Positions 30,431-35,083 of a stretch of 64,000 nucleotides of DNA are shown here, one piece after another (position 1 is the first letter of the stretch; every line of letters starts with the position of its first letter). Made by a program: the position numbers and the translations under genes. The notes below the pieces were generated by a model. The model worked only from the letters and a program-made list of their open reading frames with translations, did not search any database and was not told the DNA's origin. This DNA is from Dehalococcoidia bacterium (GTDB lineage Bacteria > Chloroflexota > Dehalococcoidia > SpSt-223): the NCBI GenBank assembly GCA_025054935.1, contig JANWZD010000014.1:1-64000 (forward strand). The letters run 5' to 3'.

Positions 30431-32281
30431 ATGAAGACCCTGCCCGCTCTCCTACTCGCGCTCCTCGCCGGAGTTGCCTTTCTCCACGGTGTCGCGGAAG
30501 CGCAGGCGCGCTCCGTGACCATGCCCCGCCGCGACGCCGAGGTGACGATCCTTCCGAACGGCGATGTGCAGTTCGTCGAGACCTGGGTCGTCCAGTTCAG
30601 CGGCGGGCCGTTTCAGCAGGCTTTCCGCAACATCTCCATGCGGCAAACCACCGGCATCACCGACGTCGCAATCAGTGAAGGCGAGACCGCCTACCGACAG
30701 ACCCTCGGGTCCGGGACACCGAACACCTACCGCGTCACCGCAGAGGGCGGGGAGACGCGCATCGAGTGGTACTTCTCGCCGACGACGAATGCGACGCGCA
30801 CTTGGACTGTGCGCTACACCGTGCGCGGCTCGCTCTATCTCTACCCAGAAGGCGACCAGTTCTACTGGAAGTTCATTGAGAGCGACCGGCAGTACACGAT
30901 CCAAGCGTCGCGCGTCCGGCTGACGCTTCCGAGCGAGGTCCGCCCCGACCAAATCCGCGCGACGACCTATACGAACGCCCGCGAGACGGGCGGAGCCCAG
31001 GTGAGAGATGGGCGGACTGTCGAATTCACTGGCGGGCCGTTCGGGCCGGGCGTGGAGTGGGAGCTGCGCGCGCAGTTTCCGTCTGGACTGGTCAACGCAA
31101 GCCGGGCGCCGTGGCAGGTCGAGCGCGATCGCGAGCCGTTCTACACCCTGTTTGGGCTGTTCTTTGCCGTTGTGATCGGGATCGCCGGCCCCGCCGGCGT
31201 CGTAACGCTGTGGTACCTGCGCGGCCGCGATGCGCGTCCGGGGCTTGTCGCTGAATTTCTCGCCAGCCCCCCGGATGATCTTCGTCCCGGCGTCGCCGGG
31301 GTGCTCCTCGATGAGCGCGCCGATCTGCAGGACATCATCGCGACGCTCGTCGACCTCGCCCGGCGCGGCTATCTTCAGATCATCGAGCGCGATGAGCGCG
31401 GCGCGGATCGATTCCGCTTCGTCCGGCGTGAGGGCGATCCAGCTGAACTGCAGCCGCATGAGCGGCTGTTGCTGGAAGCCGTCTTCGGCTCAAAGACGCA
31501 GACGGATCTCAGCGAACTGCGGAATAAGTTCTACCTGCAGATCCCCTCGCTCCAGCGGGCATTAATGCGTGCCGTCGTGGAGGCGGGCCTCTTTCCGCGC
31601 AGCCCTTCCACTACCCGAGCGATCTACGCGGCGCTCGGCGGCGCGGTGCTGCTAGCAGGACTCGCCGCGTTCGTGCTGGCGACGTCCTCCTCGTCGGCGC
31701 TCGTGGCGCGCGTTATCGGGTTCCCGAGCGTCCCCGTCATGCTGACGGGCCTGCTGCTGATCCTGTTCAGCCCGGCGATGCCGCGACGCACCGAGAAGGG
31801 CGCCCAGGCTGCCGCCAAGTGGCGCGCGTTCCGGCGCTATCTGGAGCACATCGACCGCTACACGAATGTTGCTGAAGCGAAGGACCAGTTCGAGCGCTAT
31901 CTCCCCTACGCGATTGCTTTCGGGGTGGAGCGGAGCTGGGTGGATCGATTCGCCCGGGTCGACACGCCGGCGCCGGTCTGGTACCTCCCAGAGCGGGTGT
32001 ACGAGACGGGCGGATGGGGCCGCTCTAGCCGTACGAGCGGCGACTGGAGAGGCACGGGGAGCAGCAGCGGCGACCGTGGAGGCCTGCCATCGCTCGATGA
32101 AGCCGCGGCGCGGTCGCTGGGCGGACTGAACGCGATGAGCGCCGGCTTTTTCTCGATGCTGAACTCTACTTCGTCGGTCTTCACGAGCGTGCCGCGATCG
32201 TCGGGAAGCGGCGGCGGCTGGTCTGGCGGCGGGGGCGGCGGCGGAGGCGGCGGGGGCGGCGGGTCGAGCGGCTTCCGCTAG
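30431..32281 (+). CDS. DUF2207-domain membrane protein with Gly-rich tail
   Basis: A 616-aa protein. ATG 30431 follows GGAGGGG. A signal peptide (LPALLLALLAGVAFLHGVAEA) leads into an extracytoplasmic beta-rich DUF2207 domain (about 35-220) containing FVETWVVQFSGGPFQQAFR and WYFSPTTNATRTWTVRYTV. A membrane helix (about 238-260) is followed by a winged-helix-like cytoplasmic part (DIIATLVDLARRGYLQI), two more helices (about 395-450) and a C-terminal low-complexity Gly/Ser stretch after about 590. DUF2207 proteins are widespread and of unknown function. The next gene is also a membrane protein with a winged-helix-like segment and may be related functionally. Confidence 0.85.
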   Translation: MKTLPALLLALLAGVAFLHGVAEAQARSVTMPRRDAEVTILPNGDVQFVETWVVQFSGGPFQQAFRNISMRQTTGITDVAISEGETAYRQTLGSGTPNTYRVTAEGGETRIEWYFSPTTNATRTWTVRYTVRGSLYLYPEGDQFYWKFIESDRQYTIQASRVRLTLPSEVRPDQIRATTYTNARETGGAQVRDGRTVEFTGGPFGPGVEWELRAQFPSGLVNASRAPWQVERDREPFYTLFGLFFAVVIGIAGPAGVVTLWYLRGRDARPGLVAEFLASPPDDLRPGVAGVLLDERADLQDIIATLVDLARRGYLQIIERDERGADRFRFVRREGDPAELQPHERLLLEAVFGSKTQTDLSELRNKFYLQIPSLQRALMRAVVEAGLFPRSPSTTRAIYAALGGAVLLAGLAAFVLATSSSSALVARVIGFPSVPVMLTGLLLILFSPAMPRRTEKGAQAAAKWRAFRRYLEHIDRYTNVAEAKDQFERYLPYAIAFGVERSWVDRFARVDTPAPVWYLPERVYETGGWGRSSRTSGDWRGTGSSSGDRGGLPSLDEAAARSLGGLNAMSAGFFSMLNSTSSVFTSVPRSSGSGGGWSGGGGGGGGGGGGGSSGFR

Positions 32282-32368
32282 CGTCGCCGCCCCGCCCGCG
32301 CAGCAGAGTGCTACGCTCTGTGGCGCCATGCATCTTTGCCCCGGCTGGGGCATATCGGAAGAGGGCGA

Positions 32369-32884
32369 ATGGGACGCGTGCTCGGCCTCATTGTGATCGC
32401 AGTCGGTGTTGGGATCTGCGCGGTCGTCTCACTGTTCATCGGCTCCGGCCTTTTGACCAACCAGCTGACGCTCGCGGGCGCGGTGCTCGGGATCGGGCTG
32501 TTCGGCGGCATGCCGCTTCTGCTGCTGAGCGGCATCGGCGCGTTCCTCTTTTTCCGCGGCCGCGCCGAAGAGAAAGAACTGGCCGAAATCCGGAAGAAGG
32601 AGCGGCTGCTTGGCCTGATCTCGGCGCAGGGGCAGGTGTCCCTCGGGTCGGCGATGATCGAACTGAAGATGACGCGCGACGAAGTGCAGAACGCGATCTA
32701 CGACCTCGTCAACCAAGGCCTGTTCGCCGGTTATATCGACTGGACAACGCAGACCTTCTACTCGAAAGATGCTGCCCAGGTCGGCAGCACGAAATGCCCG
32801 AACTGCGGCGGTGTCCGCGAGGTCGCCGGCAAGGGGATTGTCCGCTGTCCCTACTGCGGCGTGACGCTCTTCATCCCTGCCTGA
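32369..32884 (+). CDS. Membrane protein with winged-helix-like domain and zinc ribbon
   Basis: A 171-aa protein. ATG 32369 follows GGAAGAGGG. Two membrane helices (VLGLIVIAVGVGICAVVSLF; LGIGLFGGMPLLLLSGIGAF) precede a charged helix and a winged-helix/PCI-like segment (MTRDEVQNAIYDLVNQGLFA). A C-terminal zinc ribbon holds the four Cys in CPNCGG and CPYCGV. An extended -10 (TGC-TACGCT at 32309-32317) lies upstream. It is placed between the DUF2207 gene and the selenoprotein candidate, all rightward. Function unknown. Confidence 0.75.
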   Translation: MGRVLGLIVIAVGVGICAVVSLFIGSGLLTNQLTLAGAVLGIGLFGGMPLLLLSGIGAFLFFRGRAEEKELAEIRKKERLLGLISAQGQVSLGSAMIELKMTRDEVQNAIYDLVNQGLFAGYIDWTTQTFYSKDAAQVGSTKCPNCGGVREVAGKGIVRCPYCGVTLFIPA

Positions 32885-32959
32885 GCGCATCGGCGGAGAG
32901 AGGCGGACTACCGCGGAATGCGCTACGCTCCGCGTGATCCCGCCGCCCGAGGAGGCAGC

Positions 32960-33589
32960 ATGCACCGAGCGCCGCTGCCGGTCACCGTCTGGAGCGACTT
33001 CGTCTGACCGTGGTGCTTCATGGCGGTGTCCGGTCTGGACACCTTGGCCCGCGCCGAGCCGATCGTCGTCACGTGGAAAGCGTTCGAGCTGCGCCCGCCC
33101 GAAGCGCCGCCGCTGCCGCCGGAGGTCGTCGCGCAGTACCGCCAGCGCATCGCCGCCCAGAGCGAGCGGATGCGCCAGTACGCCCGCGCGGTCTTTGGCC
33201 TCGAGATGCGCCAGCCGGAACGCCCCGCATCCAGCCGTCTCGCTCACCAAGCCGCCAAATGGGCAGAAGCGCGCGGCGCGGGCGACTGCTACCGCCGCGC
33301 GCTCTTTGCTGCCTATTGGCAGGAGGGCCGCGACATCGGCGACCTTTCCGTCCTGACGGCGCTCGCGGCCGACTGCGGGCTGGATGCTGCAGCGCTGCAG
33401 GCGGACCTCGCTGCCGGCCGCTTTGTCGAGGACGTGCAGGCCGACAGCGCCGAAGCGCACGCGGCCGGCATCTCCGGCGTTCCCGCGTTTGTCTTCGCGG
33501 GCAAGTACCTCGTCACGGGCGCGCAGCCGCCCGAGACGCTGCGGCGCATCGCTGCGCTCGTCCGCGAACAGCTCGCGGCTGAGGGCTGA
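32960..33589 (+). CDS. Candidate selenoprotein: DsbA/FrnE-family oxidoreductase with UPWC active site
   Basis: From ATG 32960 (GGAGG at 4-nt spacing) the frame reads PVTVWSDFV, then TGA at codon 16 (33005-33007), then PWCFMAVSGLDTL and on to 33589 without another stop (209 aa). In FrnE-type DsbA proteins this site is the CPWC redox motif, so the TGA replaces exactly the first, nucleophilic Cys. The rest is a complete family member: VVTWKAFELRP after the active site, a helical insertion, and the cis-Pro loop GISGVPAFVFAGKYLVTG. A hairpin meeting bacterial SECIS rules follows the TGA. Selenocysteine insertion is inferred; the alternative is a nonsense mutation of TGC/TGT. Translation starting after the TGA (near 33020) would lack the first strand and the active site. 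Confidence 0.82.
33005..33043 (+). promoter_or_regulatory. UGA codon and SECIS-like hairpin
   Basis: The UGA is at 33005-33007. A perfect 7-bp stem, GGTGTCC (33025-33031) and GGACACC (33037-33043), closes a 5-nt loop GGTCT (33032-33036). The loop begins with G and contains GGUC, like the E. coli fdhF SECIS apex. The gap from UGA to the loop is 24 nt, within the 16-37 nt expected. A lower GGC/GCC pairing is possible across a 3-nt bulge. No bulged U equivalent to that of fdhF is evident in the stem. Confidence 0.75.
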
Positions 33590-33706: not shown

Positions 33707-35083
33707 ATGGCGAAGACACGCACGCGTACTGTCTTCTGCTGCCAGCAATGCGGCGGCGAGCAGTCAAAATGGCTCGGGCGCTGCCCCGAATGCGGCACGT
33801 GGAACAGCCTTGTTGAGATGCAGGTCGAGCGGAGCGCCCCGGGAGCTGTCACCGCCTCGCTGCCGAAAGCGGAGCCGCAATCGCTGCCGACGATCACCGC
33901 CGACCGCGTCGAGCGGATCACCGTCGCCTACGAGGAATTCAACCGGGTGCTCGGCGGCGGCATCGTGCCGGGGTCGCTCATTCTGATCGGCGGGGAGCCG
34001 GGCGTCGGCAAGAGCACCCTGCTCGCTCAGATCTCCGGCGCGCTCGTCCGAACGATCGGGACTGTGCTCTATATCTCCGGCGAGGAGTCGGTGCAGCAGA
34101 TCAAGCTGCGGGCCGACCGCCTCGGCATCAACGACGCCGGTCTCTATCTCCTCGCGGAAACGTCGCTCGACAACGCGATGGCGGCGATGGAGCGCCTGCA
34201 GCCCCGCGCGGTCGTTGTCGATTCGATCCAGACAATGTACCTCGACGACCTCGAATCGGCGGCAGGGTCGGTCAGCCAAGTGCGCGAGTGCGCTGTCCGC
34301 CTGCAGCGCTGGGCGAAGGCGCGGCATGTCCCCATCTTCCTTGTCGGCCACGTCACCAAAGAGGGCGCGATCGCGGGGCCGCGCGTGCTTGAGCACATCG
34401 TCGACTGCGTGCTCTACCTCGAGGGCGAGCGGTTCCAAAGCTATCGGCTGCTCCGCAGCACCAAAAACCGGTTCGGCTCCACCTACGAGGTGGGGGTCTT
34501 CGAGATGCGGGGCGACGGCCTGGTCGAGGTGCACAACCCTTCTGCTGCCTTCCTCGCCGAGCGCTCCGCCGCCGCGACCGGTTCGGCGGTGACCGTGACG
34601 ATGGAAGGCACCCGCCCCATCCTTGTCGAGATCCAAGCCCTTACCAGCCCAAGCCCCTCCAGCCTCACCCGCCGCACCGCCAACGGCATCGACCCGAACC
34701 GGCTGCACCTGCTGACCGCCGTGCTCACTAAGCGCGTCGGGCTGAACCTGAGCGCGCAGGATGTCTTCGTCAACGTCGTCGGCGGACTGAAGATCGGCGA
34801 ACCGGCGGCCGACCTCGCCGTCGCGCTTGCCATCGCCTCGTCGTATCGCGACCTCCCGCTCGACCATGAAACGGTCTACCTCGGCGAAGTCGGCCTCGGC
34901 GGCGAACTGCGTTCCACCGGCCAGCTCGAGCGGCGGCTGCTCGAAGCGGCGAAGCTCGGCTTCAACCAAGCCCTCATTCCCGCCGCCGTCAAGCGCGACC
35001 GGATTAAGGTCGACGGGATGCGCCTGATCCCGGTGCCTGACCTTGCCTCGGCGATCGCGGTGTTTGACCCGCTCCCGTTTTGA
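33707..35083 (+). CDS. radA: DNA repair protein RadA
   Basis: A 458-aa cytosolic RecA-like ATPase for branch migration in recombination. The N-terminal zinc finger has CQQCGG and CPECG. Walker A is GGEPGVGKSTLL, the RadA-specific motif is KNRFG (STKNRFGSTYEVGVF), and the C-terminal Lon-like domain includes DVFVNVVGGLKIGEPAADLA. The length matches the family. In many bacteria radA neighbours disA, yacL, ispD and ispF; here ispD-ispF and a YacL-like remnant lie 1.3-3 kb away. Confidence 0.97.
   Translation: MAKTRTRTVFCCQQCGGEQSKWLGRCPECGTWNSLVEMQVERSAPGAVTASLPKAEPQSLPTITADRVERITVAYEEFNRVLGGGIVPGSLILIGGEPGVGKSTLLAQISGALVRTIGTVLYISGEESVQQIKLRADRLGINDAGLYLLAETSLDNAMAAMERLQPRAVVVDSIQTMYLDDLESAAGSVSQVRECAVRLQRWAKARHVPIFLVGHVTKEGAIAGPRVLEHIVDCVLYLEGERFQSYRLLRSTKNRFGSTYEVGVFEMRGDGLVEVHNPSAAFLAERSAAATGSAVTVTMEGTRPILVEIQALTSPSPSSLTRRTANGIDPNRLHLLTAVLTKRVGLNLSAQDVFVNVVGGLKIGEPAADLAVALAIASSYRDLPLDHETVYLGEVGLGGELRSTGQLERRLLEAAKLGFNQALIPAAVKRDRIKVDGMRLIPVPDLASAIAVFDPLPF

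Follow-up and report, generated by a model that had tools for sequence, protein, structure and literature searches.

What does a gene encode when a stop codon falls exactly where its family keeps a catalytic cysteine? In the 64,000-nucleotide stretch of DNA from a Dehalococcoidia bacterium analysed here (the window), a frame for a DsbA-family oxidoreductase is interrupted by a single TGA at the active site, and the question is whether that codon marks a broken gene, is bypassed by a downstream start, is read as an ordinary residue or is read as selenocysteine (Sec). We are very nearly certain of the last of these: the gene would encode an oxidoreductase of the FrnE branch of the DsbA family (COG2761, which we take to be the FrnE group) whose UGA at 33005-33007 is read as Sec by means of tRNA-Sec(UCA), SelB and a hairpin. 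The Sec reading follows from the machinery encoded in the genome, the conservation of the codon, a covarying SECIS hairpin, the existence of Cys homologues and the co-occurrence of Sec forms with selA. A preliminary description of the locus had proposed that selenocysteine replaces the nucleophilic Cys of a DsbA/FrnE protein, and every available test agrees with that proposal.

The gene, its frame and its predicted fold

The gene occupies 32960-33589 on the forward strand and encodes 209 residues, with U at residue 16 and a TGA stop at 33587-33589. An AGGAGG ribosome-binding site, read from the sequence, lies at 32950-32955 on the same strand, four bases 5' of the ATG at 32960. From that ATG, 15 sense codons ending in WSDFV lead to the TGA at 33005-33007 (forward strand), which is followed by PWCFMAV and an open frame down to the stop. 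This layout can be observed directly and is as the preliminary description gave it, from the GGAGG site to the end at 33589. The translation begins MHRAPLPVTVWSDF, and the one in-frame TGA within 32960-33589 takes the exact place of the first Cys in the CPWC active site, making it the first residue of a U-P-W-C motif in an alignment column shared by 57 Sec-form homologues. A standard ORF list reports only 33020-33589, a product of 189 aa from which the active site is missing, just the kind of fragment that had been expected of an ordinary gene caller. Other cysteines occur in the translation at residues 19, 110 and 139 only. No obvious signal peptide was seen by eye at the start of the translation, and the protein is probably cytoplasmic. 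It is the only PF01323 protein of the source genome. The upstream neighbour (32336-32884, forward strand) encodes a small membrane/zinc-ribbon-like protein and the downstream neighbour (33707-35083, forward strand) a RadA-like AAA ATPase; elsewhere in the window, 30431-32281 encodes a DUF2207 protein, predicted to lie in the membrane, whose C-terminal tail is rich in Gly/Ser.

The read-through translation, computed with Cys at residue 16, matches the Pfam DSBA family (PF01323) at 119.6 bits against a cut-off of 25.6 (E=1.9e-34) over residues 8-196, and because this match runs across the TGA a chance frame is excluded. The nearest solved structure by sequence is the FrnE protein of D. radiodurans (E=4.5e-35; 1e-45 with a profile). 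An AlphaFold model, for which the window protein was combined with 29 Cys homologues, has a mean pLDDT of 95.9 and predicts a thioredoxin fold with an inserted helical domain, to which FrnE is again the nearest solved structure: the best PDB matches are the FrnE entries 5cp1, 5co3, 5xwh, 5cnw and 5coh (TM 0.83-0.84), followed by SCO1869 and kappa-class transferase/HCCA isomerase folds. In the model, residue 16 directly precedes helix 17-32, and Pro175 directly precedes strand 176-179, which is the placement found in thioredoxin-fold enzymes. Pro175 (in GVPAF, codon 33482-33484, forward strand) is the cis-Pro that forms the second active-site hallmark of the fold. C(U)16, P17, C19 and P175 are all invariant in the homologue alignments, and the protein carries both the [C/U]PxC and the cis-Pro motifs.

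Decoding of the UGA

The preliminary description had made its proposal depend on selA, selB, selD and tRNA-Sec being encoded somewhere in the genome. In the source genome (3.57 Mb in 93 contigs) the full set is directly observed: selA at 559 bits, selB at 329 bits plus a C-terminal piece in the same 674-aa frame, selD at 397 bits, and tRNA-Sec at 68 bits against a cut-off of 47, which ARAGORN likewise calls as tRNA-SeC with anticodon tca. SelB, recruited by the hairpin at 33025-33043, would deliver tRNA-Sec(UCA) to the UGA at 33005-33007, and with Sec inserted the active site would read U-P-W-C instead of C-P-W-C, the product being a FrnE-type thiol/selenol-disulfide oxidoreductase within the DsbA family. 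We infer that Sec is actually inserted at residue 16. The main formate dehydrogenase-like protein of the genome has no in-frame TGA (G000:C6:96044-98092; L151, L152; a 949-aa open frame), so a Sec formate dehydrogenase at that locus is not what the Sec system is retained for. The selD gene itself has an in-frame TGA, at GAGUACK (G000:C15:53052-53978, L010); it is a second selenoprotein gene, and its UGA would also be mishandled by ordinary gene callers.

It is conceivable that the UGA is read as some other residue, either by genome-wide reassignment of the codon or by near-cognate read-through with Trp or Cys, and leakage at UGA through Trp-tRNA is indeed known. But the FrnE gene has TGA as its own stop, which rules out reassignment across the genome; every non-TGA homologue found has Cys in the column; and the Sec machinery is present, with Sec forms tracking selA across genomes. 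We consider a decoding other than Sec very improbable.

The Sec reading agrees with what relatives of the gene hold at this position. Aligning homologues at position 16, a check put forward in the preliminary description, gives a column that is either U (57) or Cys (100). Within the class, TGA at the first position of [U/C]P[W/F/Y]C was found at 33 loci in 31 of 100 genomes, and a phylum-wide sample of 200 genomes adds 24 verified Sec loci, bringing the verified Sec-form homologues to 57; some of them come from single-contig genomes (e.g. G113 and G205). At the active-site column, Cys (TGC or TGT) is found in each of the 100 non-TGA homologues examined, 15 class homologues with TGC or TGT there were analysed, and neither TAA nor TAG occurs at this column in the aligned homologues. 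A contig search with a back-translated pattern requiring a Cys codon yields Cys forms only, and its results served as Cys controls and did not enter the Sec count. Presence of the machinery follows the codon: selA scores above cut-off in 26 of the 31 class genomes with a Sec form vs 2 of the 13 with Cys forms only (Fisher p=3.3e-5), with the proviso that p-values for this and the other Sec vs Cys contrasts are optimistic, as related sequences are not independent. In five Sec-form genomes no selA reaches the family cut-off; three of these genomes are only 71-81% complete. Some class genomes have more than one FrnE-type gene (G006, G029, G069), and in G069 a Sec and a Cys copy occur together.

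The closest comparison is with a congener (G002), whose FrnE protein matches at 86% identity across 209 residues and in which the TGA, the frame, the hairpin and both neighbouring genes are kept, with the RadA-like gene still adjacent. After the TGA the two genes differ at 110 sites, spread 17/15/78 over the three codon positions (dN 0.084, dS 0.87), and this pattern indicates that the frame downstream of the TGA is under strong purifying selection. Such conservation bears on whether the gene might be a pseudogene, or the TGA a Cys codon misread in sequencing or assembly. TGA is one base away from TGC, TGT and TGG, and an assembly in 93 contigs is a fragmented one, but the same TGA recurs at 57 loci in many independent assemblies, some of them single-contig, the downstream frame is strongly constrained in the congener, and the hairpin covaries. 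Decay or error is therefore refuted by conservation, and we give it almost no weight. We give as little to a shorter true product, lacking the catalytic residue and started at the internal ATG at 33020: an ATG-initiated ORF of 189 aa does exist there, but its product would start partway into the active-site helix, with neither the first strand nor the nucleophile, the 15 codons 5' of the TGA align with homologues and are conserved (WSDFV / SDYI), and the ribosome-binding site sits at the upstream ATG.

The SECIS hairpin

Downstream of the UGA, the bacterial SECIS (bSECIS) hairpin GGUGUCC-GGUCU-GGACACC spans 33025-33043 on the forward strand (stem 33025-33031/33037-33043, loop 33032-33036). It has a 7-bp stem and a 5-nt GGUCU loop, lies 24 nt after the UGA and has a folding energy of -13.9 kcal/mol, in keeping with every bSECIS rule given in the passages searched of a 2026 review: a loop of 3-9 nt, a stem of 4-16 bp, G in the first two loop positions, a distance of 16-37 nt from the UGA and an energy <= -7.5 kcal/mol (PMC13188914). 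The same rules hold for 48 of 57 Sec forms vs 24 of 100 Cys forms; these simple criteria miss 9 of the 57, and when Sec forms are shuffled synonymously, 42% of the shuffles still pass them. For the window alone, a 60-nt dinucleotide shuffle gives a z of only -1.07, and this weak single-window result was supplemented with family-level synonymous shuffles and covariation. Synonymous-codon shuffles give a mean z of -1.33 in Sec forms (n=33) vs -0.16 in Cys forms (n=15; Mann-Whitney p=1e-4, optimistic in the same way), so the post-UGA RNA of Sec forms is stabler than protein and codon use require. Covariation, scored on an 8-bp stem in 30 class members (the window pair and one divergent sequence being left out), is 0.340 in Sec forms vs 0.145 when shuffled (0 of 500 shuffles) and at most 0.184 when the structure is slid, whereas the same structure placed on Cys forms gives 0.168 vs 0.175 shuffled.

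The constraint on the hairpin can also be observed at a single base. The loop begins 24 bases from the U of UGA, and G occupies this first position in 28 of 33 class Sec forms vs 6 of 15 class Cys forms (p=0.003, again optimistic). This G opens a GNN codon, the eighth after the UGA, which encodes mostly Val, Glu, Asp or Ala (loci L020-L047 and L131-L149); the codons for these residues share their first base only, which suggests a constraint at the RNA level, namely that the first base of the SECIS loop must be G. Compared with most relatives examined, the window and its congener have the loop one codon (3 nt) farther away from the UGA, a shift also present in the related loci L154 and L160-L163. 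The Cys proteins L155-L159, tree neighbours of the Sec clade L160-L163, are without the hairpin stem: in this Cys sister clade of Sec forms the SECIS signal has been lost.

Exchange of Sec and Cys, and known relatives

In a tree of 110 rows, well-supported branches carry at least 12 changes between the Sec and Cys states, and the most parsimonious count is 20. We lean slightly towards a model in which the FrnE active site in Chloroflexota switches repeatedly between Sec and Cys and the downstream coding sequence is remodelled along with it: the SECIS hairpin, including the first-loop G that forces a GNN codon, would persist only as long as Sec occupies the site, and in the subclade of the window the loop would have shifted by one codon. 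If this is true, the FrnE family is a natural experiment on the gain and loss of Sec. Its many Sec/Cys contrasts can also serve to test why selenocysteine is retained.

Relatives of the protein are already on record. As stated in the passages of these papers that were searched, a DsbA-like UxxC selenoprotein (COG2761) was first described from the Sargasso Sea in 2005 (PMC1088965) and was counted in later surveys (PMC1794560, PMC2398784, PMC5029168), in one of them from 41 organisms (PMC5029168), and it is the 'DsbA-like protein form 1' of the 2026 review (PMC13188914). The window protein is like this prokaryotic family in its PF01323 domain, in having Sec first in UxxC and in the bacterial SECIS directly downstream; there is no essential difference, apart from its being a member from Chloroflexota (Dehalococcoidia-class) with the displaced loop noted above. 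The literature passages searched do not name Chloroflexota for this family, although an earlier report elsewhere is possible, and how common Sec-form FrnE is in the phylum is a point beyond what the cited literature states. The preliminary description had thought a FrnE selenoprotein unusual in this lineage, an expectation that did not survive: the Sec form is present in 31 of 100 class genomes and widespread in the phylum, and the COG2761 UxxC family was published in 2005 (PMC1088965). The gene is a well-supported addition to a known selenoprotein family, and the surprise is modest.

FrnE of D. radiodurans (DR_0659; PDB 5cnw, 5cp1) is alike at the E-value given above and at a TM of 0.84, its CPWC aligned with UPWC and its cis-Pro motif shared. 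It differs in having Cys where the window protein has Sec, and in carrying, at residues 239-244, a C-terminal CxxxxC (PMC8945050) that the 209-residue translation lacks. CxxxxC is also absent from S. roseofulvus FrnE, and the passages searched mention several FrnE proteins without this motif (PMC8945050). There the D. radiodurans protein is described as a cytoplasmic disulfide reductase/isomerase, protective in oxidative stress, whose CxxxxC is thought to regenerate the enzyme (PMC8945050); with that motif absent, the Sec-form FrnE must be recycled some other way. By analogy, the window FrnE may be a cytoplasmic disulfide reductase or isomerase that protects under oxidative stress, and its selenol would be the attacking nucleophile in protein disulfide reduction/isomerisation or in the relief of oxidative stress.

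The Cys-form FrnE/DsbA proteins of Chloroflexota and other phyla are homologous to the window protein over its whole length and at most 49% identical; they have TGC or TGT at the codon and the hairpin is not maintained, whereas the window has TGA and the hairpin. In eukaryotes, Sec insertion relies on a SECIS in the 3'UTR. FrnE/DsbA selenoproteins of algae and marine invertebrates, in the passages searched (PMC6627142, PMC3473315, and SelenoDB, PMC3965025), can be likened to the window protein by description only, sharing the family name and the Sec form. Standard gene callers cut the FrnE enzyme short of its active site, and probably do so in dozens of genomes of Chloroflexota; annotations of this large environmental phylum are therefore likely to under-report a redox step that depends on selenium.
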